NCBI GenBank assembly: GCA_963969365.1
Contig: OZ017758.1
Coordinates: forward strand, 1,860,001-1,924,000
Source of the DNA: Asterochloris sp. CNOR1
Lineage: Eukaryota > Chlorophyta > Trebouxiophyceae > Trebouxiales > Trebouxiaceae
Reading direction: 5' to 3'
DNA length: 64,000 nucleotides
The notes beneath the pieces were generated by a model. That model was given only the letters and a program-made list of their open reading frames with translations. It had not been told where the DNA came from and made no database searches. Each line of letters starts with the position of its first letter. Position 1 is the stretch's first letter. This document shows, one piece after another, positions 1 through 64,000 of this stretch. The translations under genes were made by a program, and so were the position numbers.

Positions 1-1667
1 CTGCGCCTCGTCCTCGCCGTCTGACGCCTCATCCTCTGCCTGAGTGTCCTGCCCCAGGAAGAACTTGAGTGCCGCCAGCATGATGTGCGAGTTGGAGTGC
101 AGGGCGGCACTGGCTGCAGGCACAGGCAGCAGACAGTCAAGCCACACGCTGCAGGGAGCTGCCAGCCTTGTTGGGAGTTGGGGTGCAGGGCACAGCTGGC
201 GCATGTGCAGGCAGATCAGGGAACTTAGCTTCTCACGCTGCACGGCAAGCTTGTGATGAGAGTGCCGCTAGCATCATGTCGGGGTGCACAGCAACATTGG
301 CTTGAGCTCTGGGTAGGCAGAGGGGGCAAACTGGCACTGACAGCATGCCGCTGTCTGCAAGCACCTTCCCCTTGGCACGCCACAAGTGACGGTGCTCGGC
401 CCATCGCGTGTGCTGGGCAATCTCTGGAGCTTGCAACAGGCCCCATATGCAAGAGAGAGGGCACCATGCAGGGCTCTCTTACACCAAGCATGCACCTGGT
501 ACTTGCTCAGGGTGTGCAAAGCCTGTATGCTAGATGCCGAGCTTGCAGAGCCCCAGGCACACCTATCACGTTCACAGTGCGCGCGTCACGCCACACATGG
601 CGCCTCCATAGCTCTGTGAGCACGGCCAACGATTTCTTGGCAGCCATCTCACTGTCGTCCTGCAGCATGCTGTACAGGAAGTTCTGTATGCTGCGGTTCA
701 GGCGCTCGTCGCGGTGCTTCTGATTGGCGCCCTTGATGTCTGCAGGCATGATGTGCAGCTTTGAGTGGGAGAGGAGTCTGAGCGCTTCTGCCACTTGGGC
801 AGCAGGTGAGGTTGGGTGGCAGCCTGCAGAGGGGCACTGTGCAATAGCAAATGTCCCAGGTACAGCTGCAGAAACTACAGGCAATGATAGGTTGGCATGC
901 AAGGCCAGCGCAGGAGTCCCTGCATTCTTTGAGAACAGGCAGAAACGGCACCCAGTGCCTCACCTGCCACAATGTGGGAGAACAGCATCTGCCTGAGAGC
1001 CTTGTCGCGGCACCTGAACAGGCGGAAGAAGAGCGGCAGCACCTCCATGGGCGACACCTGGCCCCTGTTGCGCAGCAGGATCAGCGCCTTCACTGCCGCT
1101 TGGCGCAGGGCTGAGTCCAACGCCTCGCTGTGGGTGTCCAGCAGCTGCATGAGCTCTGCCGGGAATCCTGCAGTGTCCTTGGGGTAGCACTGTGCCACCT
1201 GCGCACAGCGTTGGTGGTGAGAGACAAGGTAAAATTACTGCCATAAGATGTCAAAGACAGCACAAGTGGATCCCTTGGACAGGCAGGCCTCAAAGTTCTC
1301 TAGTTCGCAAGACAACGGGCTGCCAAGTGGCAGAGGGACCAAGAAGGCTGCTGTCAAAGCTGCCGCCTAGGATTTAGCTGGCAAAGCTGACCTGTGCCAA
1401 GAAGGCCAGCAGGTCTGCAAACTCCCTGGAGTCATTGCTGGGCTTGAGGGTGAAGATGTCCATGCACGCCCTATAGTGACGCCACTGCATCTCAAAGTCC
1501 TCTGCAAAGCCATCTGGATCTCTTTTTATGCTGCCCTGCAGTCAGAAGACATAGCTGGTGGTTGCAGATGAAGTCTGGCAGCTGTTGTCTCTACAAGTAT
1601 TAGCAGTCAAAACATGAGGGATACGCTTTACCTGCAGGGTGAGCAGGGCCTGATTGCTCTTGGACAT
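1..1667 (-). CDS. SDA1: SDA1 homologue (60S ribosome biogenesis / actin organisation factor), 3' part outside window
   Basis: Minus-strand gene running off the left edge. Exons read by frame and splice sites: 1667-1632 (MSKSNQALLTLQ), 1535-1392 (starts GSIKRDPDGF), 1198-964 (includes KALILLRNRGQVS and LFFRLFRCRDKALRQ), 739-563 (includes RSIQNFLYSMLQDD and ARTVNVI), and 113 to the edge (SHIMLAALKFFLGQD, then a Glu/Asp-rich tract). The order LLxLQ, IKRDP, ALILLRN, LFRCxDKxLR, NFxYxML, TVNVI and ALKFFLG is that of the SDA1 N-terminal region. In yeast SDA1 acts in the nucleolus in 60S subunit maturation and export and was first found through actin defects; that role is carried over from the family. 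The start at 1667 is the first ATG giving the conserved LLxLQ segment; an upstream in-frame extension is open but not conserved. Exon phases agree at every junction. C-terminal half not in the window. Confidence 0.9.
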
Positions 1668-1752
1668 GTGGATGATCTGCTGCTTGTACTCCGACTTGAA
1701 CGTTGCCGCCGCTGCTTGATTTCCGCCGCCGGTCAGCGCAGCTGATCACAAC
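1668..1752. promoter_or_regulatory. Shared 85-base divergent promoter, SDA1 / methyltransferase
   Basis: The SDA1 start codon (minus strand, 1667) and the methyltransferase start codon (plus strand, 1753) face away from each other with 85 bases between them. The stretch is GC-rich and I see no TATA box. Both genes act on ribosomes by family knowledge, so one bidirectional promoter is a reasonable inference. If either start codon is wrong the shared region changes size. Confidence 0.45.
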
Positions 1753-4700
1753 ATGAACAGCCAGCCACTGTCTTCATCCCGCATGATGCAAAACCTGCGG
1801 CAGATACCCCGTGCGGTACTGCGGTGGCATGTGTGCCAATTCCATCACCAGCACCACCACGCATTGCACAATGGCGCCTGTAGGTTGCTGGCTGCACCAG
1901 TGGCACCATCAGCTGCTCAGGTCCCTGCCCAGGTCCCTGCCCCCACTAATCCAGTCCAGCAGAGCCAGCAGAAGCGGCATGCTGGGAATGCACCAGTGGA
2001 AACTCTGCTAGGCAATATGGCCAAGGAAATTGGAGGTAACCATGAGGCTGCTCTACCCACAAACCTTGCTTCTGGCGTCCAATAGCATGTGCAGTTGTTT
2101 CCTCCACATTGCAGGGAGTCACTTGCACTGCCATTTGCTACTCCCACAAGCAACACCACCTGCGGGTGCCCCACCTCGGCGATGCACATGATATAGAGGC
2201 CTGCCCCTGCAGCTCATGCTGGCCCCCACACCTGCCCTGCAGGCATCCCCAAGGTGGTGCTTAAGCGAGATAAGGCCCGTCTGTTCAAGGGGGGTCACCC
2301 AATGGTGTTCTCGGGGGCCGTTGACAGGGTTGTGGGCAAGCAGCCTCGCAAGGGCGATGCAGTCCTGGTCACAGACGGCGCAGAGACAGCCCTGGCCTGG
2401 GGCGTGTACAATGGCAGCTCCATGTTCAGAGTCAGGTCAGTCTCAGCTTGGCACATTGCATCACCCTGATTCTGTGCACAGCATGTCATGCTGGAGGTCA
2501 GGCCTGCTGCAGTCCTGACCTTGCCCTTTGACGCAACATGCACAGCAATGCATCTGCCACAAGATCAGGTGTAAGGGGCTGGCAGACCGCTGTTGAGCCA
2601 CTCGGATGGGCAGGCCTTCTTTTTACCAGCCAGCTGTGGCAGGCAGGGGCTCTGCGTGACAAGTCAATGCAATATGGTCTGGTATCGAGCTCAGCTCCAG
2701 TCCACACAGTGTAGGACCTGAGCATCCCACTCGTCTCCCATGCTGCTCTCTGAGTCAATGAAGTCTGCATGTGTCCCACTGGATGCCTATCTGAACCCCT
2801 GTGCACAGCATGCAGCCAGCAATATCATTGACAGACATCGTCCCCTTGCCCCTGCAGGCTGGTACAGCTGGAGTGCTACAAGCGCGCCGCCATCCACTAC
2901 TCTCAAATCTTTTCGATCTCTGGAGGTTCTTCGTACTCCACAACTGACTGTCACACCCTGTCGCCCTGCAGGCTGATGCAGCTGGAGTCCTCCATGCGGC
3001 GCCCAGGTGCCCTGGACCTGGCCTTCAATGTCGAGGCTCTGGTGGCTGCCAGGCTGCAGACTGCACTGCAGCTGCGTGCGGCGCTGGGCATCAGCCAGCA
3101 GGGCATCTACAGGCTGGTCAACGCAGAGGGCGACAGGTGAGACCCCCCAAGCTTGCAGTGAGGCCAACTTGCTGTTTGGGCACTGCCCTCTGACCTACAT
3201 CCTACATGTCAGGGCTGGTACAGGTTGGTGACACAATGTTGGCCAAGGTCGTCAGCAGCCTTGCTCGCTGAACTTCTGCCTTGATCAGAAGAGCATGGGA
3301 CAGCCTGTCCTGCTGGCTCGGCATGTGAACAGTCGACAAATGATCTTTGTCTGCCTGCAGGCTTTCTGGACTCGTGGTGGATGTCTTCAGAGGCCAGAGC
3401 AGCGTGCACCTGGCAGTGGTGTCCTCAGCAGCATGGGTTGAGAGGTGACTAGCTGCGCTGCCAAGCCAGCCTAGGCAGCTTGACCTGATGAGACACACAT
3501 CTGCTGGTCAGCACAAGGCAACCCCCCCGAGGCGGTGTGCAAAAGGCTAGCCTGCCAATCTGCAAAGAGTCTACTCCGCAGCCGGAGCTGCAGCTCTGCA
3601 TCTGACAAAGTGCTCCAGGTCACTCATTCAAAAGCACTGCTGCACAGTTCAAAGGGGCACCTGACTGTGGAACCTTCACCAGCATGGGGCAGGAGGTGAC
3701 TGACTGCACTGCCATGCCCTGACATACATCACTGCAGCGCATGTTGCCCACACAGCAATGTGTTGAGTGGCATCAGCCTGCCCCTTCAAAGCAGTTGTGA
3801 CGGACCAGCCTGACATGCTGCCCTCAGCTTTTGCAGTCCCTGCTTCCAAGCTATTTTGCCGCCTGCCCAACGTGCTCAGCGCATGATGCTGAGCAGCATG
3901 CCCTGCTTACAGCTCATGCCTGCCCACCATGCTGCAGATACCGCCCCTTCATTGAGCAGCAGCTGTGCAGCCTCTTCAATAAGGACGATAGCCCTGAGGT
4001 CATCTGGCTGCCTGCGGCAGCGATGCTGCAGGAGGAGGGGATTGCTGCAGATGTGGACGCTGCAGCTCAACCAACAGAGGAGGCCCCCGTAGATGCACAA
4101 GTGACCAAACCTGCCTGGGCCATGCAATACACCTTGTCTTTGGCGCCTTAACATGATTGATGCGCCCCAGAGCGGTGTGGGCAGGCTGTGGCGCGCCACG
4201 GCACTCAGCTATGAGGGCACAGGTGGAAGCTGTTTTGCGGCAAAGTGGTGCCAGAAGGCCTGACATGTTTTGCAGTGTGAGCAGGATGCATGCAATGCAT
4301 ACACACTGGCACCCTCCATCTGTGCAGGCATGTACTTGCGGCCAAGCTTGCGGTTAACATGAACATAAACATAAACATGACCTTTTGGTGTTGCAGGAGC
4401 CCCAGACAGTGCAGGTCGAGGAGCACAGCGTGAAGTACAAAATCGCGCAGCGTGGGGGCCAAAAGACAGGTTTCTATGCAGATCAGCGGGACAGCAGACG
4501 CCTCATACAGCAGCTTTGCCGGGAGAAGCGGGTGCTGGACCTGTGCTGCTACACAGGCGGTTTCGCACTCAATGCTGCTGTGGGCGGCGCTGCGCACGTG
4601 ACAGGTAGCTTGGGCTGGGACGTGCGGGCTGGGCAGCACTCAGGGAATATGCTGTGTAGCTATGCTGTGCAGCCAGCATGCACTCGTGCATGACATGTGC

Positions 4701-6018: not shown

Positions 6019-6261
6019 GCCCTGCAAGCGACCTCCTTGATTTCTTGAAACTCCCACAAGGAATAAGAGATCTGTTTACAGGTTTGGCAGGCAGGTAATT
6101 CTGTCATGCCTGTCCAACTTGTCAAGTACACACACTGAATGAGTAAAAGCATGGCCTCCTGCTGACCGTGAGAATGGCATGCAGGGCGTTGCAAGAAGGT
6201 ACTTGACTTTGGGGAAACGCATGGTGAATGCAAGTTACACCTAATCTAACCCTGTTGAATG

Positions 6262-9200
6262 TTAGCTTGCAATATCATTCTCCTTATTGTAGGATAGCTG
6301 GCTTGTTGAGATGGCTGGCTGCGAATCAGGCTCAGGGGACTTGAAAGGGGTGCTGCCACCAGTTGAAGGCGCAATCAGGTCATTTGTGCTGGTGGGGCTG
6401 GCACTTACAATCTGCCTGCCGAAGTCCAGCTGCTTGAGGGGGGTGCAGGCTGCAGGTTGGTCGGGGACTGCAGGTTGATTGCCGGGCCCTGTCTCAGCCT
6501 CCAACTGCGTCACCTGCCGGGCGTGCAAGGTGCGTGACAGCAGGCTGCTGCTACGTGGCGCTTTGCGGGCACTAGTGTGCACCAGCTGGTCAATGCAGGC
6601 CGCCATCTCCCTGCGGCTGCTGGCGATGGCCCTCCCCAGCTCCTGCAGACACAGAATCAGCAGCTAAGAGCTGAAGACGCAAGAACCACTTGGCTTGTCA
6701 GAGTGGTGAAAGGGGAAGAGGAGGAAGGCAGCAGGACTGCAGGGGAAGGCAACAGCCCCAGAGCTTGACTGCAGCAAATCAGGCTGGCAAAGCTGAGGCA
6801 GTCACAGTCCCTGTCTGCTTGTAGTCAAGCATCAAGGTTGCATCTGCGGGTTTGTGCGCATGGTCCAAGTCAAGCGATTGCCCTGAATGTGCTGGTGTCA
6901 CCTCCACATTGGCGCTGCATGGCGTCTGCACGCCGTCAGACTCTGCCGACGTGCTGGCTGGGCTCGACGCTGCAGCCTTCTGGGCAGCCACCTGCTGGAG
7001 CTGGAGCTCTGTCAGCTGTCGCTCCAGCCTGATGACAGCGCCCCGCATGACTGCCACATCCTGTGCACCTGCACAGTGAAGAGCTCAAGTCGTAGCTGAT
7101 GACAGTGCCATGCAGCCAACTGCGTGGGAGGCAATGTTAGGTTATACATGCTGCCCAGGGCCCACACGACCCCTCGTAGGTGTGCTGAGCATGTCTCTCC
7201 AACCTAAGCAGCTGCCTCCACACATACTGTGTGCTGCGGTGCAGTGGCTTACGTCTTGTAGCAACGTTGCACCTCCACATGCACTGCAAGCTTTCATGCA
7301 CACAGCAGCAGCAGCAGGGCGCTGGTCGCCGTCGCAGGCGGGCTAGGCTGCTCTCATACATCAATGCACGGAGAGGTTCATGTCTGTATGGCCGCATGGG
7401 CTTCACTTGGTATGCAACAGACGTTGAGATGCACCTCGTGCAGCCTGCAGGGGCATTCCCTGCAGCAGCGGGGCTGCGGGGGCCTGTGGCAGGCACAGCA
7501 GTTAAGACGCACCGTATACGTCTGTGCAGCAGGCTCACCTGCTGCAGCAGGGCTGCGGGGTGCAGAGGCAGGCGTGGCAGGCCTCTTAGCTGAATGCCTC
7601 TGCAGGTCCAGCAGCTGCCGGCGAGTCGCAGCATGCGCCCCACGCTCTGCCGTCAAGTCAGCCCCTAGCGCCTCTGCATGCTGAGCTGCAGCCGCCAGCT
7701 GCTCCTGCAGCGCTGCCTGGTCAGGCTGTGCGTCACCTTCCACAGTGCGTGAGGCCTGCACAGCAAATGCCCACAGGTTTTGACCACACTCCAACACAGC
7801 AACATGATACCTTTCATTGTGTGAGGCCTGCTGTAGTATTGCATGGAAGTGGCTGCTGTGCACAAGGTGTGCTAAGAAGATGTCCTCTTCCATCTAGATC
7901 CACATGACGGCGTGGCCAACACAGACTGCCCACACACATGGGCTCCATGCATCGCAGATTGGCTGGCAATGGCATGCATACCTTGAGCTCCTGTCTTGCC
8001 TCCTCCAGCCTCAGCAGCGTGCTCTGGAGCTCGCGATAGTGCTGCATGCTCTGTCTCTGCAGGAGGGTTCTCATGGTAGTAATGGGGAGGTTACAGCGCA
8101 TGTCAAAGCTTCGTGAACAGCTAGCTTCCAGTGCCTTGGTGGATGTCAACAAGAATCAGCAGCTTCCAGTCAAGGAGCTGCATGCCACATGCCAACTACT
8201 ATGGGCAGCTGCCACTTTCAGGAGTCTCGCCACAAAGTAGTAATCTAGCCTCATGTCTGCACAAGCCACATGGTTTGCCAGAGCAGCAATAGCTCAGCTC
8301 TGTCAGCTGCTTCCTACTGCGCCTCAGCCAGCCTGCACAGTCATACTCCAGCTGCTAAGGGCAGCTGCCGCCACCTGGACTCCTCACAAGTCAACCCTGG
8401 ACAGCTGCCATGCGGCCCACCTCGGCGCGCGCCACGTCATTTCCCAGAGCGGCAGCAGCCTGTGCCCTGTCAGCAGCCTCCTGCTGGGCAGCCGCCAGGC
8501 GCTGCTCGTGCAGGCTGGCTGCTGCCTCCAAGCTGGCCTCTGATGCCTCTAGCACATGCAACCGCTCCTGCAGCACCTGCAGCTTGGTGCTCTGGGTCTC
8601 GATGATGGCAACCAGCCCATCCTCTGGCTGGCCGCCATCACCTGCCGTACCTTCAGCTGCCTGCAGGCACTGGAGCGCTTGCTGAATAGGGTAGGCTGTG
8701 GTGTGGCTGACAGCCATTACCCGCTGCAAAACGGCTGCTTACAAGCGCAGGTCAGCTTGATGAGCAGGACAATGCTGTATATCAAGAGGCAGCCATCACC
8801 TGCGGCAACCCTACGTCCACCTGCCTGATGTGCGATGACAGGCACCTTGAAGGGGATCTTTGGGACACTTTCAGATCAACAGCACGGCCCAATGACTCCA
8901 TTGTTGCCATAGCAGATGAGCAGCTATCACCCCTGACGCACCTTACTGACTGCTCTCAAGGTTTGGCTCTGCTGCAGCTTCGAGACCAGCCTCTGCGCTG
9001 CATCCCGTTCATCGTCAGCAGTCACCGCAGTCATCTTGGCAGCAGCCAGCTCCAGCTGGAGCTGCTCCATGGCCTGCAGGCGCAGCACTGACTTCTGCAC
9101 CAACTTTTGAAAAGGGAGTCACAACTGCAGTACTTCTGTGCAGCCGGACAATGTGATGTCAATGTGGCAAGACACACAGCTTTAGTGCACAAGATGTTTT

Positions 9201-12200
9201 TGGGGCTTCACAGCCATGTAGGTGGTACTGGCAGCAGGGACTGACCTGCGAGAGGGCCTCAATCTGGGCTAGACGCTGGTCAGCCTGCTGCTGCAGCTCA
9301 GCCCGCTGTGCAGAGACCTGCAGCAGCTCGTCAGACTGCACGCCTGCTGCTCCCTGTAGCTGCTCCACCAGCACTCTGAGCTGGCTCCTGCTCTGCAGGA
9401 CCTCTGCCAGCTCTTGCTGCACCTGGGCATGTGCAGGCTCCAGCTCTGCCAGTTGCATCCGCAAAGTGGCAGCGGCCTCTGCCGCCTGACCCGCAGCATA
9501 TCCCTGCTGTTGCAGCTTGGCCTGGAGTCTGGCCACCTCTGCCCCAGCCGCTTCTGCTGAGGCCTGCTCCACCGCCTTAGCCTCTGTCAGGTCATTCACT
9601 GCCTGCTTGGCAGCCTGCAGCTCCTCTGACAGCACCACCGCTTCTCTGCCGGCAGCAGCACCTGCATCAAAGGACTGTCACCAACGAGGACAGAGCATGA
9701 AGACAGTTGTGTGTAGCTCACTCAGCTCACTGACATCTGCTTCTGTGCGCTGGGGCAAGCAGCCATCAGACAGGCTTGCCTGCTGTTGCGTGAGCTGCTT
9801 GCAGCTGCTTTGAACACAAAGCTTTTGAAGTCGCCCACCTCAGCCCTGCAGCTTACTGGTAGTTATTGCTGCTCTTCCACTGTGACATGGGCTCACCTGT
9901 GGCTTGAGCTGCCTGCAGCTGGTCAGCTGCCTGCTGCAGCCTCTGTCTGAGGTTGCACCCCTCCCTGGCTGCGTCTGCCTGCTGTTCAGCCAGAGTCTGC
10001 TTGGCTGCCTGCAGCTGGTGTGTGAGCCCTTGCAGCTGCTGCTGGAGCTCCTTTGCAGCTGCCTCAGCACCAGCCTTGGCCTCCCTAGCTGCCTGAGTCT
10101 CCCTCAAGGCGGCGGCTAGGTGTGCTTGCTGCAGGACAGCCTCCTGTTGCAGTTGCTGCAACTTGGCATTAGACTGTGCCACCTGTGCCTCTGCCGCCTC
10201 CAGCTGCCGCTGTGCAGCAGTGGCAGCAGCCAAAGCCGAGATTTGGGCCTCTTCTGCTGTTCCTGCCCGCTCCTCAGCAGCCGCCAAAATCCTCTGTGCC
10301 CGAGACTGATCCTGGTCTAGCCGCTGCTGCTTGCTGTGGGCTGCTGCCAGTTCCCCCTGAGCCGCCCTCAGCTGCTGCTGCAGCCTCTCAGCTGAAGCGT
10401 GGGCAACCGCAGCGTCCTCCTCTGCTGACTGTGCCCGCCTGTCAGAAGCTGCGAGACTCTTCTGCGCCCGAGACTGGTCCTGGTCCAGCTGCTGCTGCCT
10501 GCTGTAAGCAGCTGCCAGCTCCCCTTCAGCATCTCTGAGTTGCTGCTGCAATGTCTCAGCTATGGCGTGTGCAGCAGCAGCATCATCCTGTGCAGCTGTG
10601 GCAGCACCCTCAGCAGCACTAAGGAGTCGCCTGAGCTCCTGTGCCTCGCTCTCATGCTGCTGCTTGGCATTGCTGGCATCTGACCGCGCTTCCGCATGGT
10701 GTGCCTCAGCGGCCGCCAATCTCTGCATGCATTCATCCCGGACTCCAGGCATGACAAGCCAGCAAGAAACAATATACCTTGCAACATGGAGGGATAGCCC
10801 AATGCATGCAGAGTCGCGTTTGGGACACCACCTGTCAACTGGCATCCCTCCAGAGCAGTTGGCCACCCTGAGGTGCCTGCTCCAGCCAGAGCAATTGCAG
10901 ACGCGCACCTGATCGGCTGCAAGCTGGCCAGTGTGTGCTGCCTCTGCTTGGGCATGAGCGCTGGCCATTGCCTCTTGCAGCTTAGCTGTCAGCCGTGCCA
11001 CATCCTGTGCTGACTTAAGCAGGTTCTCTTCTAGCTTCCGCGCTTCAGCAGCGGCACCTCTTTCGCGTGCCTCTGCGGCTGATACATGTGCTCCTGCTGC
11101 ATCCAGCTGCTGCTGCAGATCCTACAGGGCATCAGTGGCCAATAAATTCTGGTCAGAAGTGTGCCAAGGCAGCCACATGGCACCCCATTCTGACGCAGAG
11201 CAGCTTGGTGCGGCTGCTGTCACAGCTGATTGCATCCTCTCACACAGAGTGCATAGCTGCACTGCAGTCACCTGGCGCTCAGCCTCAGCCTGCTGCTGCA
11301 TCTCCCTCTGCACTGCCTCCGCAGACTGCTTTGCCTCCTCAAGCTGCTTACTTAGCTGCTCATTTGCTTTAGCAGCACTGTCGCTGACAGCGGTGGCATC
11401 AGCAGCGCCTGCTTCAGCAGCAGCCAGCCTCTGCTGCAGGTCAGCTACCTCCTGAGTCCTGCTGGCTGCCTCCTGCTGCACTTGCTGAAGCTGTGAGCCT
11501 GTGGCAGCCTCTGCCGCCGCAGCCCTTGACACTTCTCGTTGCAGGCCAGTCTTCACATCGGCGAATTTCTGTGCTGCCACCTCCGCATCCAGCAGCTTCT
11601 GCTCAGCGGTGGCCTTGCCTGCAGTGGCAGCCTGCAGCTCCTCCTGCAGCGCCTCTGCCTGCTGCTGCAAGGTTGCCTGACTGCTCTCAGCCTGCTTGAC
11701 GCGACGCAGAAGATCACTGCTGGATGACTTGGCAGCCTGTAGGCATGTGGCAGGGATTTCAGCAGCTGGACGCTCCACTGGTGCAGGCCTGGCACTGATC
11801 TGACGCTCAACACAAACAATTTGGCAACCACAGGGTGGCTAGCGCGGTGCCTGATCAGCAACTGTTTGATGGCAGACACTGTGGCACATTCAAGCTGTAC
11901 TCATCACTCATTGTGCAGATTTGCAGGCAAAAACAGAGCAATGCAGCGTGGCCAGGACCATAGAGATACTGTGTCTCTTTAGATCATCTGCGAGCAAAAT
12001 GCAAGTTGTTCAAGCTTATGCCATATTAGCCATAGCCCCAGCACCCACCTGCAGCTCACTGATCATGTCCAGCTTGGCATCCAGCTCATCCTCCAGCCAG
12101 CGCTGGCGGGCTTCAGCCTCAGCCGCCACACGCCGAGCCTCAGCCAGCTGCTGCACAAGGGCGCCTGTCTGGTCCACCTGCAAGGAATTATTGGGAACTT

Positions 12201-15200
12201 TGGGACACATCAGTATTTGCAGCTTCAGCCTCTACAGGCACTGGCCAGGCTGGGCCTCAGCCAGCTGCTCGACCAGTAATTACCCTGAACCACCTACAGA
12301 ACGGGTGCAGGCCCACTCGAGAAGAAGCTACACCTTTGCAGCATTGGTCGGTCAAGCCAGCTGCTGGACCAGCGTGCCAAGCTGGGCTCTCATCTGCAGC
12401 ATCAGCTTACGTCTGGCAAGGCACCTTAGCTGCCAGCAATCTCAGCTGCGTCTGCAGCCCAATCTGGTAAAGCTTGGCATCCAGCCGCATCTCAAGCGCC
12501 GGAGTGCTCTGACAGCTCAGGTGCAATAGGTGAATGCAAAGGAACCACACAGGAGATATGCTGACATAGTTTTTCACCTGCTGCTTCTGCAGCCTGATGT
12601 GGTGCTCTTTGGCATCCAGCTGGGCCTGCAGGGCCTGCATGTGGGCCAGTATGCCATCCATCTCCTCCCCCTTTCCAGCAATCTGCTGCCCAGAGCTGCC
12701 CAGGCGCTCGTGCAATGACGCCACGGCCGCGCGCAGCGCCGCATGCTGCTCCTCAGCCTGGGCAGCCCTCTGCTGCTGCTGGGCAGCCTGCTGTGCCTGG
12801 TCCTGGAGCTGTGCCTGTGCCTTGGCCAGGCTCTTGGCATCCTCTGCCTGCTGCTGCTGCAGGTTGGCCACGTGCTCTGTGAGGAGCTTGATCTGAGTCA
12901 CATCCTTCTCGTGCTGCCTGCCGGCCTGCTGCACCTGCTCCTGTAGCGTTCTCTCCCTGTCCGCAGCGGCGCTCAGCTCAGCCTGCATCTGGCCATGCTT
13001 TTCCTGCTCGGCCCTGGTCTGCCCACGCTGCGCTGCCAGCGTGGCTTCCAGGCAATCCAGATGCTGCACACGCTCCTGCATTAAGGACAGGCTTCTGGTG
13101 GCTTCTCATATGACATTCCGCATGCCAGCAATCATTTCATTACAGCTGCATGTAGCGCGATGACCCCAGCTTGTATTCTGGCTCAGAGCAGGACAAACTT
13201 GGCAGTCTGCATTGTGACATTGTACCTGTAGCCATTTGTTGTCAGCTGTCTTCTGGGCAAGCGCCTCTTCACGAGCAGCCGCTGTGGTGCCTGCTGTTTC
13301 TAGTGCAGCCTGCCGCTGCTCCAAGTCTGCCAAAAGTCTAGATTCGGTGGCCTCAAGGGCTTCTACTGCTGCGCGCATGGTAGCCATCTGCTGCTGGCCT
13401 GCATGGCCCGACACAGCAATTCAGGCATGATTGTCGTGCACAGATGTCCTTGTTGTGTTTAATGCGTCAGTGATGATGCCAGCTGAGCCATGTGCACTCA
13501 TGATCATCACAGCCTGCTGTTCTACCTCCACGGGTGCGGTCTTTGGCTCACCAGCTTGCAAGTCATTGTGGAGCTGTGCGAGCTGTGCATCTTTGACCCC
13601 CAGCAGCTGGGCGGTGTCAGCTGCCTGCTGGTCCTTCTCCCGCAGCTGCTCTTGCAGTTGCCTGATCCTGCCAGAAAGAGCATCAGCACCTGATAGCCGC
13701 TCCTGACTGTGGGACAGCTCCTGCTGTGCATTTGCCAGTGCAGCCTGTGCCTGCTCAAGGTCGGCCACTGCATGCCTCAGCTGCTTGGCCTGCTCATTGG
13801 CAGCTGCAGTTGCAGCGGCCTGCTGCCGTTTCTGAGCCTGCAGTGCAGACTCCACCGACTGCCTGCCTTGCACAGCCTGCGGAGAAAAAACAGACCAGCA
13901 TGTCAGCATGACTGCAGACTCCCACCTGCGGCAGCCAGGGAACAACTTGCCGTAGTGCAAGGCCACATCAGCTTTCAGTGAGACAGTGACGAACTTGTGG
14001 AGAGTGACGGCAAAATGGCCTTGCTTATCAAGTGGCACTGTCTGCTGCAGCGCTGGTGCACAGTCCTCAGCCTGCTGGCTCATCTCACCTGCTGGAGCTG
14101 ACTCTTGGCACCCTGCAGCTCATCCTGCTGCTGGCGCTGCAGGCTCTGCAACTGCATGAGGGCTTCAGCCTTGTCAATGAGCAGCTGCTGCTGGCGCCTG
14201 TGCTGGCGCTCTAGAGCCTCCTGTGCCTGCTGGGCGCCGCTGGCCTGGTGTGTAGCCGCAGCGGCTTGCGCCTGCCTAAGCTGCGCTTCCAACCGCCCCA
14301 CCTCCTCTGCATGCTGCTCTCGTACGTGGCAAATCTCCAGCGACTGCTGCTGCTTGGTGCTGGCCAGCTGGCCGTGCAGGGCTTTGAGCTGCCGCAGCAG
14401 GCTGGCGTGCTCCTGCTGAAGGCCCTGCATGTGAGCTGCATGTGAGTTGAAGCTGCTATGCCACAGATGACAGGGCTTTGGACTGAGGTTCCATGCCCAC
14501 CTCGCCAACATCTGACAGCCAGAACAAGACAGCGACAAGGCATCATTCTACTGCAGAATTGACCAGCAAGGCTGCAGGCCTCTTACCTTCTCAGAGTCTG
14601 AACAACAGGCTGGGGCACACCTTCATGTTGCCAACCTGGCCCTCAAGATCTTCCACTCGCCTCAGGAGCATTGCCCTCTCGTCCCGGTGGGCCTTGTCTT
14701 TCTCGGTCAGGCTGGCCTTGACTGTGCTGAGCTGCCCTTGAAGGGCGCTCGCAAGCTCTGTACGCTGGTGGTGTTCCTGCAGGAAGCAGGGCTCAAATTT
14801 TTAGTAACATGTATGTGCTGACTGCCACCACGAGACTGCAAATTTGTGATCCAGCCTGCTGCAGCGTTTGGAATGGCACACGGTGCTGCTCAGGGTGTAG
14901 CACAGCCAGCCGCGGCTTGCCCTGTAGCAGAGCTAGGCAGCACCTCAGAGCTGCATGACCTTCGTTCCAGCCCTGCAGAGGGCCTCTTTTACGGCTTCAA
15001 CAGTTCCTGCACCAGTGCTGAAATGTCCTGCTGCAGCTGGCGCCCTGGACGCACCTTACTCTGAAGCTGCAGCTTGCCTTCCAGCTGCAGCCTGTCATCT
15101 TCCAGTTGGCGACAGCTGGCTGTGAGCTGATCCACATCACGTCTCAGCTCCTTGGCAGTCTGCATGGGCAGAGGTGTTGGCTGCAGTGCCTGCTGGTGAT

Positions 15201-42414: not shown

Positions 42415-42445
42415 GCTTTTTGTGGGGGGGGGGGGGAGGGGGAAA
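42415..42445 (+). repeat. Poly-G tract
   Basis: A run of 14 G (42422-42435) broken by one A and followed by more G. It is the longest homopolymer in the window. It may lie in the 5' region or first intron of the minus-strand membrane protein gene and is prone to sequencing error and slippage. Confidence 0.8.
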
Positions 42446-44063: not shown

Positions 44064-44482
44064 TGCAGGTCAGATAGCCATTGTGTAAAGAGCAGCTGCT
44101 TGACGAGCATTCCCGCCTAGTGTGCTCACCTTTCATGCTGGCATCCTGTTTGAGGGCCTGCTGCTGCATGCCATCAGGCTGATGCTACTGCACAGCCTTG
44201 TCTTGAACCTGGGGCTTCTGACACCAGCCACTGTGCTGCTAAGCAATGAATGTGTGCTTGGTATGGATCTGCTCGATGCTAGCGGTCTGCTGATGGTTTC
44301 TTGCCTGATGGTGAGAGTAGTGCCATTTGCACATGAGCCGTTGTAAGGAAAACCTTGAGCTTGATGGATGGGGCTATTGGAGTTTTGACATTCCCCTGCC
44401 CATCTATGCACATCTGAGGCAGTGCAGCCCCCGCATCTCAGATCCAGCTGGGACATCTGCCTGCCCTTTAGATCCCTCCAAA
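44064..44482. other. Divergent intergenic region
   Basis: About 420 bases between the unknown minus-strand gene and the plus-strand secreted protein gene. An open plus-strand frame at 44122-44346 is Leu-rich and lacks splice or family support, so I do not call it a gene. Confidence 0.35.
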
Positions 44483-51365: not shown

Positions 51366-52680
51366 TGCCCCGTTTGCCAGGGTCGTCACTGCAACGCCTG
51401 CAGGCAGAAGGCTCCTATTGACATGGACGCCAACCCTGAGGGTGCAGCAACATGTGGCTCCTACAGAGGCAACTGCTGCGCTGACACAGCACTTCCCAAG
51501 GTCAGGCTGCAGGACAATGCCCTGCTAGAATGGAAGCTGGCTCACAGGGTGCAATAAAATCTGGCAGTCATAGCAGGTGGTGCCTGTTTGTCATTTCATG
51601 TCCAGAGACCACGCCCAGAGTCAGGCCCATGCTGGAATGGGAGCAGGCATTTGGGATTGTGGCTTCCAGGAAGACCATGCTGCAGACCATCTCAAGATGC
51701 GTACGAGGGGACCAAGCCGTGTGCAGGCACAACATCTGAAGGTCTGTGGGAGGTAGGGCTTTTGCTAAGTTCAGCAAGGCCAGGAGAGAGAGCCATGCAC
51801 AGCTCTGCAAAGAACCTCAGGTGACTGCTGAGGTCTGCTTAAGGCAATAATTGGTGACACAAATGCCACATATGTTTGGCCGGCCAGATAACGCCAAAGA
51901 CAATGTTGCAGCGCTCAAAGGGGCATCCGGCTGGTAGATGTGAAGGGCCACGGCCTCACCATTTGCACCCAACTGGGCTGAGGTGGTCGTCAGGCCGGTG
52001 AAACGCTCTGCATCAGTGGCTCCAAAGGCAGATGTGGAAGTGCTGCCCACAGCCGCAATGCCCAAAGCCACCAAGCCCCTGAAGCTTGAGTCCTGCAGAG
52101 GCATTCGGTGCTCAGCGTCAACGGCTCCCAAAGCAGATGCCCCAGGAGACCAGGCCCAGGAAACTTTTGCTGGAGTCTGGCAGGAGCAGTGAAGCACTTC
52201 GTGTCAGGGGCTCCACATGACCAGCAGCGGCAGGGGGTTTGACGGCTGCAGTGCCCAGGGAGACTGCAGCAAGTGCAGCGGTCTGTCTCAGAGGCTTCAG
52301 AGGCAGCCTTGACTGTACACAGCCCATGCAAGGGCCTGAGCAGCCTTAGTGCCTGCCACCACACAGTTGTCCAGCATGGACACATTGTTGTGTACGCTGG
52401 ACCATTGAGCTGTCGGCGTCAGGGACCAGTTGCTCTGCTGCTGTGCGTATAGATGCAGTGGCCCAGCAAGAGCAAGCCTCAGGCGCACTTGAAGAGCCAC
52501 ATATCAATCAAGGCCCAAATCTGTGCCTGTGCTTGTGTTCATGCCATGTCAGCGCAGCGTACGCAGCTTGACCATGCCAGAAACACCAGACGCAAAGAGC
52601 CCTACCCGACAAAGTGTGCACCAGCAGGTGCACTGCCTGCAGGCTGGTAAACACAACAACAGCAACCAGCAGATCTGGCT
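51366..52680. other. No confident gene; Ala-rich minus-strand frame
   Basis: A minus-strand frame at about 52190-51850 reads ASALGAVDAEHRMPLQD and, 35 codons on, SAFGATDAERFTGLTTTSAQ, an internal in-frame duplication. No splice pattern ties it to the ARID or CHAT gene, and I recognise no family. It could be the 5' part of the ARID gene or the 3' UTR of the CHAT gene. Confidence 0.3.
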
Positions 52681-55600
52681 CTATTCAAGCCCAGAAGCCA
52701 CCTGAAAGAGAGCGTGATCTGCCGGATGCATTCGCACTAATAATATTGTGCACACGCAGCAGCAAGTATGGGGCTGCTAGAAAGTGAGCTTGGGCCCACC
52801 TGAGAGGCGCAAGAAGCTGCAGCCAGCCCACCTGACATGAACCGCACACAATGTGCACCCTGAGAATGCTAGCGCTGGCCACAGCAGCAGGCAAAGACCA
52901 ACAATGTGAGGTCGGCAGCGAGGCCCAAGTGACATAGCATGGGCTGCAGGTCCACTGCCAAACACTGGAGACTGTCACACCGCCACAGTTGATGGTGCAG
53001 CTTTGCAAGAGTGCCAGCAGCCACACCCGTATAGCCCCACCTGACAGAGCGTGCGCAGCAGGTGCACAGCCCACACGCTGGTGACCGCCACAGCATCCAC
53101 CACAGGGGACCCCCCCGCAACAGCCGCGCTGCTGCGGGCTACAGGCGCCGGCTCCCCTGGCGGGGGCAGCTTGAACTGCAGGCTCAGCGCGTCTGCCACC
53201 AGGGTCTGCCTTAGGGCGTGCTCCACCAGAGGCTCGCTTGCTGACACTGCAGGGCACAGCAATTACATTTGTGAAGCTGACACTGCAGGGCACAGCAGTT
53301 GCGATTGTGAAGCTTACACTGCAGGGCATCCACAGTTGAAGTGGGTGACCAAGCAATGCTGCCCAGGATGCAGTGAGGGCAGTGCAGCTGGTGGTGCACC
53401 AAGCGCTCATGTGGGAAATCTCCAGGGGGCGCAGACAGGAGCGATTGCGGGCGCAGCAAGGGTGTGCAGGCGTCGCACCAGGTGGCCACGCCAGAGGCCT
53501 CCCATTGTCTGGCGGCTCCCTGAGGGAAACAACAGCAGGCCTGTGCCCACAGTGTGACGAGGACGCAGCCCGCCAAAGGGCATCCCCCGACAAGGGTGTT
53601 GGATATTATGCATAGCGAAGGCAGCTTCCAACCTCTTAAGCTCACCGTCTGGCGGGCCCCCTAGTACGACTGTCGCATGCCCTCCGCTGGCGCTGCGAAC
53701 GTTGCAGCGCACGGCGGTGCAGCCCTGGGGCAGGTGGGCAGGCACCCGCTCCGTGGCCTGCTGGTTATGCACTGTCAGGCCACGCATTTCCAGCACAAGC
53801 AGCGCCCGCAGAGCCTCCCCCAGGTAGCTGCAGACAGACAGGGAAAGCCAGCTATGAAAGGACAGCAGGCAAGCAGTCACTGTGAAACTTGGAAATGTAC
53901 AGGGATGTACCAGGCACCAGAAAAGCTGCCAGCATTGGGCATTCAAAGAACTGGCTAGATGTGTCTGCATAAGCAGCCTGTGCCAGGCTCACAACATTTA
54001 TCTGCATAACATATAGGCAGCAGAAAGATGCAATCACAGTCACTGCCCAGCAGCTGCTAGCGCTGGCAAGTGTGGGACTTTCAGCTAGACAATACAGAGC
54101 CTTGCACAGACGCGCCATGTCGCCAGCACGGCACCTGAGGCGGTGTGCATCAATGAGGCAGCTCTGCCCGCTGCACAGCAGACGCATCTCCGCATGTGGG
54201 GCCAGCAGTCGCACATCGTCCCACCCAGGCACCACCGCTGAGATGCCATGGCTGAAGTCTAGGCCCTGCATGCAAGATTGTGTGTGGGTTGCCAGCAGCG
54301 ACATGAGGCCTGTCAAAGCATCTTAGCCCGGACTGCTGAGCGTAAGGCACCTCAGGCTTTTCTGTCTGCTGCATCTGAACTGGGCCTGCAGTACAACATC
54401 TGTAGGGAATGACTGCAGACTGGCAGTGACATGCCATCATCACTTTCAGTGAGCCTGCGAATAAGTCGGACACAAAGGCATTCGATGTGATCCTGAGCAG
54501 AACACAGAGCTGAGCTGTGTGGGCTGCTCATGCTGCCACAGGTTGGCCTGTCTTGCACCTTGACTCTGGTGAAGCGCAATGACGCCCTGGGTGGTAAAGG
54601 ATTAGGCAGCCTAGATGTCAGCTTGCTAGGCAAGTTGACCGAAGCAAACCACAGGCCTGCCTGAAGGGCATCGCGGTGGGAAAGAGCACAGATGTGCTGG
54701 CTGGCAAAGATCATGAAACAGGAACATCCCAGTCAGCTTGGCTAGTGACGAGCCAGCGCCATGATCACTGTTGGACGAAGCAGAGGCACAAAACTTTGCA
54801 TTGATACAGCAGCCCTCAGAGGTTGGGTGCCAAGGTCCTCAACCGCACCTCAACTGTGGGCAGGGGCACCGATGAGCTGGCTGGCAGTGCTGCTGGCTGG
54901 TCTGCCACATAGCGGGGCAGCAGAGGGGCCACAGGCTCGTGCAGGCTGCTGCCGCTGCAGTGCGCATGACAGGCGTGGACTGCCACTGCAAAGGCCTGCA
55001 GGGACAGAGGCGGTGCTTCCTGAAAAGAAGCTCACTGAAGGGGACAGACACTCAGTGAGCTGCCACTGCAGTCATTGCTTGCAGGGAGGGGCTGGGTACG
55101 AGCATGGAGCGCGCTGCAGGGAGAGTGGACTGCAGTGTATTGCATGTTGTTACAAACTGCTGAGCAGACAAGCTGCTGGTGACCCACTATTCACAAACAG
55201 TTGAGCGCACTGTCATCAGGATGACTCAAAGGCAACGAGCTGCTCACTGCAGAAGCAAAAGTACGTGGAATGGCCTGTTACCACGCTGTGCTGCAGAGGA
55301 ATCGACAGCACAATGCTGTACACCAGCAGCGACATGACTGGAGGAGTGGCAACGCATACTTGATGCGTTTCCTTTGACAAAGGCAGATCAGTCCATCCTG
55401 GCCAAGGTGGCTTGCTGCTGCAGCATTCAGGCTTGGAGCTTCTTGCCAGCGGGCTGGCCCTTACCTCTCCCACTGATGCCCCAGGATTCCTGAGCATGCT
55501 GAGGAAAGCATGACCAAAGTGGGAGGCCTGGATGATTGGCATGGCTTCCTTGGGCTGCCAGTGTATGACATGCGGCACACCAGCCGCCCTGAGCGCATCG

Positions 55601-58738: not shown

Positions 58739-61700
58739 ATGGAGGGGAATAGCACAGCCACCCGGGGCCCACCTCGGCGCAGCGAGAGCAGTGTCAGCAG
58801 CCAACCTCAGCCTGCCAAGAAGGTGGTCGGGTTCCATGTGGAGGGCCTGCCCCAGTCCCCTGCGCCCCACAACACCCTGCTGGCAGACTCGCAGCACGCC
58901 ACCACCACCTCAGGCTCGCCCAACCCTGTCATCATTCCGCCCTCCTTCCAGGTGACCTGGCCTGCTTGCTTGTAATCAAGACGAGGCGTGCGGGAAATAA
59001 GTGTGGGAAATTGCCTTTCAGATTGGCAAAGCCTCGCAAAGCCTGGCAATGTCATGCCATTCAGGTGAGCAGGAGCCGGCAATCTTTGCGCCTGCACTGC
59101 TTCCAATATGGTAGCATACATTGCCTGTGTTTGACTCCCAGAGGTGACTTCAGCATGTGCTTGCATGGAATGGCATTGCAAATGAGCACTTGAATCTAGA
59201 ATGCTGCATATGCTACTAGACGACGGCCCACACAGGCCTTCTTGAAGCTTCCCTGCAGCCCCTGCAACAGTCTCCTCTGCACTATTTGTGCAAGGGATCT
59301 ATAGGCTGTTTGCTTGAGGGGGCCATCTCCTGAGTGCTCCAGGCACTAGCCATGCGCGCGTGGCATGTGCTCCTGCCGCAAGCATGTGCACAGTTATCAG
59401 AGCCAGCCCTGCTTCCAGGGCACCAAAATCTCTCTGATTCAACACAAGCTTTCTGTTTGCCAGCTGAGGTCATTTTGAGATCCAGCTGAAGAGGTGTGGG
59501 GTGATGCGTTGCAGACCGACTCTCCCACAGCGCACCGCCCCACCACTGATGGGGTACCCCTGACCAGGGGCCACACGCTGCCAGTGGGGTCAGTGGCTCC
59601 CATAGGAAGCTTCATGGAGGTGCGCCCCTGTCTGGCGGGTTGCAAATAGCCAGCGAGCATGTTGGTGCAGCATTGAGGCAGAACTTGCACAGTGGCAGCT
59701 CTGGCACTGCGGCAGGCCTGGCTGCATGGGTCTCAGGCAGCAGATGCTGAGACCAAGGACTGCTATGTAGGACCTCAGCTCCAGCATAGTCAGCCTGTGT
59801 TTGTTTCTGTGCTGTTCCTTTGCGGTTGGGCTGGCTGTATTCAGCTCAGGCAAGAGCTGAGGGCTGGTCAGTGTGTGCTGCAACAATGCCAAGTACTGTC
59901 CAAGCTGTCAAGAGTGTCGTTTTTGCAACATTGGCCAGCAGCCTGCAGGACCTCCACCCCCCTCCTTCTGTAGGCGGCGCACGGGATGGCAGGTAGGGTG
60001 TTGCAGATGCACTTGCGGTCCCTGGCTCACATCCCTACCTGCGCAACATATTGCTTGTGGTGTCAGCACCTTGAAGGAGAAAGACTGTGCAGACGCTAAT
60101 CGAAAGGAGCACACACACAAAGTCAGCCAGCACAGTTATGCTGCGCAGCTGCCCCTGCTGGTATGGCCCACATGAGAGCCAGGGATGAGAAGCCCGGGTA
60201 TGTATTCATGTCGTGGTCATGCAGGCAGGCCCCGAGCTGGAACAAGCTCCAGGCAACCAGCAGCCTGCCCCCCACAGACGCCATGGAACAGGTGGACACC
60301 GAGTATCTTGCCCGTGTGGCTGCTGGCAGCCAGAGCCCTCCCCGTGGCCCGGCAGCACTCCGTGGCCTCGGGCACGTATCGCCCACTGCCCTGCTACGGC
60401 GCAGCACTGAAAGCACGCCCAACACCCCCAAGGTGCCAGGTGCGCGCTGCATGTGCTGCATGGAGGACGCACGACTCCCCAGCTGCCATGTTGGTGCAGG
60501 GCGTTTGTTGCCACATGCATGCAGCCTCTCAGCTGGAACTTAGACAGCCTGAGAAGCCCCACGGCGCATGCCTCTTGTTCTGTGCATGTTCATGGAGCAA
60601 ACACATGCTGCAAGGCCTCCGCTGACTTGTTTCAGTGCAACGCCAGAGCCACCCAGCTGATGTCTAAGCCATCCATGCAAGAAGTGGGCAGCAACAGTGT
60701 GTGCCCTGGTTTGCTGCAGGCTCCGGGTCAGCCAGCCCCTTTGCAGATGCCAGAGCTTCCCCATCCACGCCCTCCTTCCCAGGACCGGCCAGGCTGCCAT
60801 CTGCGGCCGCAGCAGCTGCGGCGGCTGCTAGTGCCTTTGGGATGACCGGCTCGCGGCGCAGCAGTGGCACGGTCTCCCCTGAGCCTCCCGGCGAGTGTGG
60901 CATCTCCAGCTCCCTGCATGCCGTGCTCTTGCTGCTTTGCACATACAAGGTAGCAAGCTGCTGCACTGACTGGGGTGCCAGCAGTAACTGGGCAACCTCG
61001 GCAGCCTCCTATAGGCCTGAAACTAAGCAGGGACATTCTGGTAATGTGTCCGGGAGCATTGCTGCACAGGTAGATGAGCTGTGGGCAGCCTAATCGTGGC
61101 AGCCTCCTGTGATTGCAGCCTGATGCCTGCTGCAAGAGTTGTACAGTGCCCTTGGCTTAGTTGCCCTGCATACTTCATACAGGGCCACTGTTCCTGAGAA
61201 CCTCTGGGCGGCAGCCCCAGCTATTGTGACGCCACCGCTTTCAGGCTGCTGCACGTCCACTGCATCAACTCTTGGTTTGCAGAGCCATCGTCCCTCAACA
61301 GCGCTGCACAGCCAGCCCCCAGCAGTCGGCACACCAGCCCATCAAGGTCACCTGACACTCACTGTGATTCTTTCATATCTGCAGAGCCACTGTCCTTGAG
61401 CACCTCTGGGCAGGCAGCCCCCAAGGGTCGGGATGCCAGCCTGGCTGAGGCTTCACGACGCAGCAGCCGTGAGAGCACAGCAGCTCCAGAGGCACCCCGA
61501 CGCAGCAGCCGCGACGACACAGCAGCTGGGCGCTCCAAGCGCGTAAGCCGGGACAGCTCCGGTTCTGATCCCTCCAAGCGCGCCAGCAGGGACAGCGGTG
61601 GCGCTGAGCCCTTCAAGCGCACCAGCAGGGATGGTGCTGGCACTGACGCCTCCAAGCGCAGCAGTCTGGCAGGGTCTGCCTCGGGGACCCCCAGGACGCC

Positions 61701-64000
61701 AGGTGCTGGTGTGGCTCAAATTGCCACTGGTGTGGGCGCTAGAGGTGAGAGCCGCCCCCACAACCGCACAGGACCTTAGCAGCTGCCATGCTTTGCTACT
61801 TATAATGCAGCAGGGGCAGCCAGGGGCGCCTGTGAGGAGGGGACATTGATCTGGAGTGGGCAGTCCCTCACAACCTATGGCAGCTGATCCTTTGATTTGT
61901 TAGTCTTGCAGGTCTTGTGTCAGATAACTAAATATTGACAGGTGCTGGCATTGTGGTTGGCGTTGCCAGTGCTGCAGGCTCATGGGGAGTGCAAATCGCT
62001 GCACACTGACGACCAAGTTTGTAGTGTCAACATGCTGCTCAAGCTTGACACCTGCAGGCTGTGCTGTGGGCGTGTGATCGCGAATACTGCATGGCATGCT
62101 GCCGCAAAGTGGCAGCCCATCTCCAGACGCTGGCAGCCTGGAAGCCAAGGGCTGGCAGAGGGCAGTGTGCGAAAATTTGCTTGCTTCCACACCCTGTAGG
62201 CCAACAAAGAGCATTCTGCAGATGTGTCTTTGGCTCCAGGATGAGCCCAGCAGCCCCATGCGCCAATGCTTTGCTTTTCATGCTCTGCAGTGTCTGGCGG
62301 AAGTGCTGATGGTGCAAATCGGCCGCTCAGCCCTCAGCAGGTGTCCCCTAGGATGGCTGCGGCCTCGCTGCTTCAGGCAGGGCGGCGGGTTTCAGGGGCT
62401 GGGGCCATGGCCTCACCCTTCGCTGCAGGTGACCGCGTGCAGGGGCCTCCTGCCTCTTGAGCATTGCCTCACAAGTCCGTGTGGACTCAGCACAGGGGTG
62501 GGCTGCTGTGTCAGCTGTTGCAGCAGCCTTGCTGATTATCGTTATTCTGAAATGACATGTCCACCTCTTCTCTGCTAAGACTCTGCTGTTGAGGGCTGAC
62601 TGCTGGCCCAGTACAGCTGCCCACCATTCACATGCTATACAGAGAACACTGTCTGCTGTTGCGCCCTGCAGCACACTGCTCAAAGCCTTGCTTTGGGCAG
62701 GGCCTTGACACTTGCTGTGATCGGCGGCATAGCGCTCCAAGCCATGCTGAGACTATGGGGAGAGGTGTTTCAGCCAGCTCCGCACTGTCTACTCCAGCAT
62801 CGCCACCATGTCAGCTACCTCTGCCAATCCCAACAGCGCATGTGCCTCAACTGACACCAGTGCTTTACACTGCAGGTGCCCAGCAGAATGCCCCCTGGTC
62901 GCCCTTGCACCCCGGCGGCCCAGACACTGCCCAGCAGGCAGCGTCTGACAAGCCAGGGCGCACCCCCTTCTCCAATGGGCGCCCTGTGCGCACATCCGAG
63001 GACGAGCCGCAAGCCAAGAGCCAGCCGAGTTCCAGGGAAGCCTCTGGGGAGGCAGCTCTTCCATCTGCAAAGGGCCATGCAGCCACCTCTCAGGTGAGTT
63101 CCAATGTGCAGCCTGCCACTCTAGTCTCCCCTGAATGTCAGAGGGCACTTAGAAGCGCATGCCGATGAGCAGGCAGAGCGTCAAGAGTGGCTCTGCAGTC
63201 GTACAGGCGCCTGCGCCGGTGGGCTACCTCCAAGAATGCAAGTCCTTGCTGGTCAGGCAGGCAGAAAGGGCAGTCCTGGGTACGCAGCATTCGCATTGGC
63301 ATCATGGTCATTCAGTGACCTGCATATTCACACGCCCACACACCCATATATTTAAATGTGTGTGTTTGTGGCATGTGTGTGCATGTAGCACTGCCAATCC
63401 TACCTCAGCGCAGGGAAGAGCAGGTATTTTCTGAGCTTAAGGAGCAGCGGGGGCCGCATTGTGTGGGCGCCTTGATAGATGTCATGACAGAGCAAGGCCC
63501 AGTATTCACCTTGTTGCAAATGTTTGAATGTTGCTTCAGTGGCCTTTCAGGGCACAGCATCTGTCAGCACTGCCTCAGGTAAGGGCAGCAAGGAGCAAAG
63601 CCCAGCGCTTCACGTCTTGTCAGAGCTGCAGGCATTCCTTGCTGTGCTCGTGCAGGCTGTGCGTCCTGCAAGCAGCTCCTCTGAAGAGGCTGGTGGGGAC
63701 CAGGATCTAGGCAGAGCTGCACTGCCCAGCAGCAGCGGCCAGGAGGCCGCTGCTGCTGACTGCAGCCCTGAGCGCAGCCCCAATGCAGAAAGCCCCGCAC
63801 GGGAACACTCCCACAGCGTGCGGCGGCGCTCTCAGCGGCAAGATCAGGGGCTGCAGCAGCGGGCGTGGAGCTCTGAGAGCGCGGGCCTGTCCTCCTCAAC
63901 AGACATGTTTTCACACCTGCGCAGCTGGAAGGTGAGACTCTGAGACTGCCATGAACAAGCCGGGGTGGCGTGTGCTTGCAGGGCAGTTCTCACACCTGCA
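58739..64000 (+). CDS. Ser/Arg-rich low-complexity protein with RxxS repeats, 3' end outside window
   Basis: Exons with consistent phases: 58739-58951 (MEGNSTATRGPPRRSESS start), 59515-59619, 60253-60439, 60720-60890, 61385-61744, 62291-62428, 62876-63093, then 63551-63578 and 63656-63931; more follows. Some exons between 63093 and 63551 are unplaced. Almost all is predicted disordered: Ser, Pro, Ala, Gly and Arg. There is an Ala run of 9-10 near 60810 and five 13-residue units such as SKRASRDSGGAEP (61455-61670). Each unit carries R-x-x-S, the basophilic-kinase and 14-3-3 type site. The end of exon 60890 may be a GC donor (GCGAGT), since only that join keeps the frame to 61385. A cytoskeletal or signalling scaffold is possible; a folded domain may lie beyond the window. 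Function not assigned. Confidence 0.65.
61176..61425 (+). repeat. Triplicated 3' splice site upstream of exon 61385
   Basis: The acceptor and exon start AGAGCCACTGTCCTTGAGCA with CTCTGGGCAGGCAGCCCCCA (61383-61425) have two diverged copies upstream in the intron. One is at 61180-61222 (GGGCCACTGTTCCTGAGAAC, CTCTGGGCGGCAGCCCCAGC), the other at 61279-61323 (AGAGCCATCGTCCCTCAACA, CAGCCAGCCCCCAGC). Spacing is about 100 bases. Confidence 0.7.
61455..61672 (+). repeat. 39-base coding repeat, 13-residue RxxSRD units
   Basis: Successive units read SRRSSRESTAAPE, PRRSSRDDTAAGR, SKRVSRDSSGSDP, SKRASRDSGGAEP and FKRTSRDGAGTDA, then SKRSS. The core R-x-S-R-D is constant while the spacer varies, which suggests selection on the basic-Ser motif. 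Confidence 0.85.
63327..63395 (+). repeat. CA-rich / TG-rich inverted microsatellite
   Basis: A CA-rich stretch (cacacgcccacacaccc) is followed by atatatttaaat and a TG-rich stretch (gtgtgtgtttgtgg). The halves can pair into a hairpin with the AT core as loop. It lies between exons of the Ser/Arg-rich gene. Confidence 0.6.

Follow-up and report, generated by a model that had tools for sequence, protein, structure and literature searches.

Introns in a 64-kb stretch of the genome of the green alga Asterochloris sp. CNOR1 (contig OZ017758.1, positions 1,860,001 to 1,924,000; the whole stretch is hereafter called the window and numbered from its first base) contain decayed copies of the exon edges that adjoin them, here termed echoes. 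The presence of these copies near exon–intron junctions was confirmed and is statistically strong. They are probably, for the most part, remnants of ordinary small duplications that chanced to cover an exon–intron junction. A first-pass annotation had described such echoes at nine places; local duplication was present at all nine, with unequal strength of support.

The window is eukaryotic, with a GC content of about 58% and densely packed short introns. A purpose-written gene finder, self-trained on the window, gave eight RNA-unverified gene models without internal stops and 128 intron regions, exons shorter than 60 bp being merged into introns. Pfam searches with sequences from five of the eight genes supported the models in part (SDA1_HEAT; PUA_3 with a SAM methyltransferase domain; HAD hydrolase; ARID), and the gene called BIG (an ARF-GEF) matched Sec7, HUS and DCB, a second piece of the BIG protein being without match. 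No relatives were found in viral and prokaryote sequence collections.

In the edge test, 40 exonic bases from each junction were aligned to the adjacent intron and the score was compared with those of 300 random equal-length stretches of other introns, giving a floor of p = 1/301. Seven intron regions were too short, leaving 121 of 128 (242 edges); 144 mid-exon windows and 198 far edges of the same exons served as controls. All 300 random stretches were outscored by 23 of the 242 edges, with 0.8 expected. At p<=0.005 there were 13 of 121 donors and 10 of 121 acceptors, against 1 of 144 mid-exon windows and 1 of 198 far edges. At p<=0.01 there were 26 edges (16 donor and 10 acceptor), six of which belong to the places named in the first-pass annotation and 20 of which are additional; they are spread over 25 of the 121 tested introns, about one in five, and over seven of the eight genes, bearing out the earlier statement that the copies occur in unrelated genes. 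The excess recurred under two gene models and when query length and scoring were varied over four settings (13–24 of 242–248 edges; mid-exon windows 0–3 of 101–198, far edges 0–4 of 171–248). The comparison of junctions with mid-exon and other controls that had been proposed, run here within one window, thus gave an excess at true junctions. With the reverse complement of the intron as target, 5 of 242 edges reached p<=0.01 (2.4 expected) against 26 in forward orientation; mid-exon windows, a control, reached it in 7 of 144 cases where 1.4 were expected, and this unexplained excess possibly reflects local inverted repeats.

Wide alignments of the 26 edges included the junction in 23 cases, and two proved to be intron-intron matches; 17 of the 26 held at least 18 exonic and at least 20 intronic positions. 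They extended to about 150 columns, so that the 30–60 bases originally given for the copies was too short. In six clear cases, the alignment covered 131 of a 139-base shift, 71 of 79, 84 of 91, 147 of 169, 144 of 175 and 138 of 172 bases, and homology that fills most of the shift points to head-to-tail duplication. An annotation-free scan of the window returned 61 events, reduced to 57 by strict realignment: 26 exon-to-intron, nine exon-to-intron mixed with exon-exon, 11 intron-intron, 10 exon-exon and one whole-exon, the last three classes being local duplications off the junctions. The 35 exon-to-intron events, mixed ones included, are referred to as junction events even where the alignment does not cross the junction; their lags ranged from 59 to 603 (median 166), and in 11 of them the span exceeded 1.1 lags, as possible run-on alignments or multi-copy arrays. 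A preference for in-frame lags was considered and rejected, the remainders 0, 1 and 2 modulo 3 occurring 12, 10 and 13 times.

The copies decay in a way compatible with neutrality. The splice dinucleotide could be assessed at 22 edges, four of the 26 having no junction in the alignment. It was kept in 12 of the 22 echoes (AG in 7 of 10 acceptor echoes, GT in 5 of 12 donor echoes), against 12.6 predicted from flank identity, and in this small sample no retention of the splice motif above neutral expectation was seen. Taken with the even lag remainders, this spoke against the earlier suggestion of selection for echo splice sites. Individual echoes with strong motifs (the AG before 2858, score 13.4; the AG at 31222, 11.7; the GT at 3696, 8.7) could nevertheless be used as splice sites. 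Mismatches at the 26 edges, counted by codon position of the exon, were 0.18, 0.21 and 0.33; as distances, the third position is about twice positions 1 and 2. The pattern would fit a freely decaying copy set against a constrained exon that changes mainly at third positions. In the strict codon-position count, four of the 26 exon-to-intron events with spans above 1.15 lags were left out.

Introns with echoes were longer than others (median 449 bp, n=25, versus 202 bp, n=103; versus 209.5 bp in the 96 tested negatives, p 1.6e-7). After subtraction of the echo shift their median was 268 bp (n=22) and the difference was no longer clear (p 0.097). This fits intron growth by duplication, though long introns also give more room for matches; the proposal that echoes feed intron growth was therefore upheld to the extent that they may bear on it, and junction duplications may be one route by which these introns lengthened.

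Whether duplication seeks out junctions was addressed with an offset profile and a placement model. Local similarity was raised throughout introns (about 6–13% of windows at p<=0.02), with a roughly twofold peak on the exonic side at 20 bp, where the share was 15.6% beside donors and 15.9% beside acceptors. For an intron length near 230 bp and a unit length near 150 bp, uniform placement gives a ratio of junction-covering to intron-internal duplications of 0.96, or 1.13 with deduplicated lags. Exon-derived copies remain recognisable over a longer time, their exonic partner being shielded from free decay, and uniform placement multiplied by simulated detectability gave 1.2–4.1 junction events per intronic event over divergences of 0.15–0.35 at the lower indel rate, and 1.3–8.8 at the higher. 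Observed ratios were 26:11, or 35:11 counting mixed events. The comparison of divergence and detectability used 24 exon-to-intron and 11 intron-intron events, leaving out two of the 26 with lags of at least 500 and all nine mixed events. The probability under uniform placement spans 0.002–1.0, varying with divergence, indel rate and the event count used; at the lower indel rate and a divergence of 0.30 it was 0.73 for 26:11 and 0.40 for 35:11. Since placement and detectability together can yield the observed ratio, a preference for junctions is not required and tolerance suffices. The earlier note had offered a process favouring junctions, or selection or tolerance for duplicates there; tolerance is the half of the latter alternative that the evidence favours, and a favouring process is not needed, except that the uniform model does not reach the ratio at low divergence.

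We suggest that the echoes arose as follows. Duplications of about 80–250 bp, head to tail in the clear cases, would happen to span a junction; use of the outer splice-site copy (the upstream donor or the downstream acceptor) would leave the message unchanged and turn the extra exon piece intronic, and the duplication would be harmless because that piece is spliced out. From then on the intronic copy would be free to decay, whereas coding constraint would preserve the true exon edge. Slower loss of exon-derived copies, together with removal of most duplications confined to coding sequence, would let visible remnants accumulate at junctions. Each event would add one unit to the intron, and repeated events would produce ladders such as that at 21.9–22.5 kb. 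We infer three parts of this scheme: use of the outer splice site, neutrality at fixation and the mutational origin of the copies, which could be replication slippage, break repair or unequal exchange.

Several observations weigh against this reading, some of them in favour of other explanations. Certain copies span little of their lag and may not be tandem (52563–52672, span 110, lag 434; 21824–21880, span 57, lag 603); they could be dispersed, or have lost their ends by decay. Copies of this kind would be expected of templated filler DNA, copied from nearby during break repair by synthesis-dependent strand annealing rather than by adjacent tandem duplication, and such events are known in human (PMC2671141). 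As a general explanation we find this rather unlikely: in the clear cases most of the lag is taken up by the alignment, as is characteristic of head-to-tail duplication, and old tandem copies shrink by decay too. With indels at the lower rate, both observed ratios exceeded uniform placement at a divergence of 0.15 (P 0.038 for 26:11, 0.002 for 35:11) and, for the larger count, at the divergence of 0.22 suggested by the codon positions (P 0.10 and 0.011), and some moderate junction bias of duplication is possible. This excess and the exonic peak could mean that the duplication process is itself attracted to splice junctions, for example through breaks at sites of co-transcriptional splicing or R-loops. 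We regard such attraction as unlikely, as the slower decay of the exon half already predicts the peak, the uniform model gives 2.7:1 at a divergence of 0.30, and similarity is raised across whole introns; among the few long exons (small n), windows far inside the exon in places matched or surpassed this level, probably because of coding repeats.

The codon-position test alone does not exclude coding use of the copies, since exon-exon duplications, in which both copies are coding, gave a similar pattern (mismatches 0.24, 0.24 and 0.32). Functional alternative splice sites or exon ends under selection would also be in keeping with the several good motifs that were kept, most often among acceptors, with the calling of some echoes as mini-exons and with the open coding sequence at 37.9 and 50.8 kb; set against the dinucleotide count, the lag remainders and a codon pattern that fits a decaying copy, we judge this improbable. 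The Rogers model, in which an exonic AGGT segment is duplicated in tandem to create an intron and which had been named as the nearest known process, is highly improbable as the origin of these introns. The donor region resembled its own acceptor region in 14 of 126 introns at p<=0.05 (six expected), but the echoes sit one unit inside the junction instead of at the far end of the intron. Among the four introns at p<=0.01, the best candidate was an artefact of window overlap and the other three were weak; none was convincing when inspected.

The age distribution counts against a steady neutral process. Junction copies at least 85% identical numbered 0 of 24 by one measure and 1 of 24 by strict realignment, where 28% would be expected at a constant rate (P 0.0004 and 0.004), and this scarcity of young copies is not explained by such a process. 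Intron-intron events were likewise older than simulated (2 of 11 versus 35%). Young exceptions outside those 24 were a 36-bp array at 53.24 kb (about 90%), a whole-exon duplication at 47.67–48.18 kb (0.87) and a partial copy with a lag of 527 (0.89). The scarcity may come from a past wave, from assembly collapse of young copies or from fast early divergence. It is doubtful that the lineage once went through a wave of small duplications that preferred transcribed splice junctions, lengthened about one-fifth of the introns and has since slowed, in which case few young copies would be visible. Furthermore, a scanning spliceosome would often choose the upstream acceptor copy, yet the deficit of acceptor echoes is not large (10, versus 16 donor echoes, at p<=0.01). 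Finally, the gene models are self-trained and unverified by RNA.

Among the individual echoes, all lie on the reverse strand except those of the methyltransferase and the Ser/Arg-rich genes. The SDA1-like gene (Pfam SDA1_HEAT) has an echo of acceptor junction 114/113 at 158–251, found by edge test, wide alignment and scan, in which the AG is lost. In the methyltransferase gene, on the forward strand, acceptor junction 2971/2972 is echoed at 2827–2888 (AG kept, echo junction 2857/2858, shift about 114–116) and donor junction 3444/3445 at 3640–3718 (GT kept at 3696, shift about 251–255). These two places, at 2.85 and 3.67 kb, and those at 22.0, 24.5 and 26.8 kb in BIG, all of them in the first-pass annotation, passed the edge test at the floor of p. 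The coiled-coil gene has echoes of donor junctions 7539/7538 (7408–7478, GT lost, shift 79) and 8421/8420 (8205–8338, GT lost, shift about 166–169). At a further donor of this gene, 9897/9896, the exon side is echoed (9705–9794) and the junction lies outside the wide alignment; an exon of the same gene contains 168-bp repeats at 10012–10724, an exon-exon duplication of about 70–78% identity. The exon edge at acceptor 12178/12177 is echoed in two stretches within 12222–12398, with lags of about 117 and 216.

BIG carries the longest series. A first echo of acceptor junction 21887/21886 lies at 21966–22118 (AG kept, echo junction 22052), and further echoes of the same exon edge lie at 22110–22159 (score 106; null 95% point 94, 99% point 109) and 22444–22485 (score 130; null maximum 112); altogether two copies of this edge exceeded the null maximum (scores 151 and 130), one exceeded the 95% point and others were weaker. 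Edge test and wide alignment agreed on echoes of acceptor junctions 24382/24381 (24475–24605) and 29064/29063 (29145–29248) and of donor junctions 25184/25183 (24999–25100) and 25901/25900 (25747–25840). Possible weaker copies of the acceptor at 24382/24381, none significant alone, lie at 24429–24483, 24644–24681 and 24716–24770. Acceptor junction 26709/26708 is echoed at 26769–26904, the alignment covering 131 of the 139-base shift, donor junction 27596/27595 at 27429–27512 with CAG|GTG kept, acceptor junction 31117/31116 at 31196–31281 with the AG kept, within a longer run to about 31340, and acceptor junction 36300/36299 at 36363–36404 with the AG lost. At 37.9 kb, edge test and wide alignment identified a copy of the predicted donor edge 38091/38090 at 37904–37976 (38091 matching 37907, lag 183). 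The frame of exon 37904–38686 is open through this 183-bp (61-codon) duplication, the predicted donor is GC and that of the copy GT, so that either site may be real; the place named earlier holds as a duplication, and 37904–38686 may be a candidate alternative or misassigned exon end.

Of the remaining places in the first-pass annotation, that at 50.8 kb in the ARID gene (Pfam ARID) is a strong duplication found by the scan (50775–50867 with 51155–51250, lag 383, within 50775–51250), which may be a duplicated exon because the gene models read both copies as coding; it and the 37.9-kb place may both be real coding sequence. At 53.3 kb, the scan identified a 36-bp unit in 2.5 copies with about 90% matches (53240–53338) at acceptor 53247/53246, classed as intron-intron; it failed the edge test (p 0.54) because only about seven exonic bases lie within the repeat. 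Acceptor-like sites follow one another there 36 bp (12 codons) apart at a single exon start. In the Ser/Arg-rich gene, on the forward strand, exon-edge copies at lags of about 105 and 202 (61180–61547; 61180–61346 with 61382–61547) were detected by the scan only, the edge test failing (p 0.057). Further echoes were found of donor junction 53041/53040 (52563–52672, GT kept, lag about 434), of donor junction 54849/54848 (54660–54755; edge test, wide alignment and scan) and of acceptor junction 54996/54995 (55056–55121, AG changed to AA).

Outside the echoes, the youngest large duplication of the window lies at 47584–48180, where a unit of about 294 bp comprises a whole exon with flanking intron, its copies sharing about 87% identity (81 of 90 within the exon); a third copy is partial and the encoded protein is full of QN-rich repeats. 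The 5' start of the BIG model may have neighbouring genes merged into it. Its first exons (38500–44169) encode stretches unlike ARF-GEF and without Pfam match, one of which resembles a multi-pass membrane protein, and they are probably separate genes joined by the gene finder. Window-wide, the trained acceptor is nearly invariant GCAG (G in 88% at position -4, C in 96% at -3). GC replaces GT in about 15% of the predicted donors, a share that the gene finder may inflate.

The mechanism is most likely ordinary, and the interest of the echoes lies in their frequency and in the scarcity of young copies. If general, they represent a simple route of intron lengthening in which the exon edge acts as a dated tag, since the constrained exon keeps the original while the copy decays; old duplications otherwise invisible inside introns would become countable and datable, and a source of decoy splice sites would be explained. 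Echoes also call for caution in gene finding because they resemble exons, and several were indeed called as mini-exons here.

Gao and Lynch in 2009 reportedly described internal (tandem) gene duplication and intron creation, including small intragenic duplications, some covering intron-exon structure; in contrast with that work, the extra exon edge here appears to be absorbed by an existing intron, with no new intron. Among the matches listed in a search of open-access titles and the starts of abstracts, junction-spanning duplications silently absorbed into introns were not treated as a class, which is weak evidence of absence. Tandem duplication within genes and its role in intron gain are well known (PMC3443670; PMC2891723). 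Both intron sliding or tandem duplication as described for Drosophila (PMC2891723) and the AGGT model of Rogers (PMC3443670) resemble the present case in that tandem duplication touches splice sites, but they concern coding duplication that creates introns, which was not convincingly found here. Introners (PMC9860276) likewise place repeated sequence in introns and differ in that the window has no dispersed intron family; a candidate introner family was rejected, as comparison of the 8128 intron pairs of this window gave 12 short matches between introns at E<=0.01. Repair-mediated duplications in primates comprise local copies of up to 619 bp, intron splice sites included, but that set was filtered of inserts within 50 bp of their template as tandem, and partial exon/intron sequences made up only 4 of its 824 donors (PMC2671141). 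In potato, a duplicated segment containing intron-exon structure, branch site, pyrimidine tract and 3' splice site is described in a 2016 study (PMC4974935); there the copy became a new intron and an inserted exon, whereas the copies in the Asterochloris window are read as silent intronic sequence.

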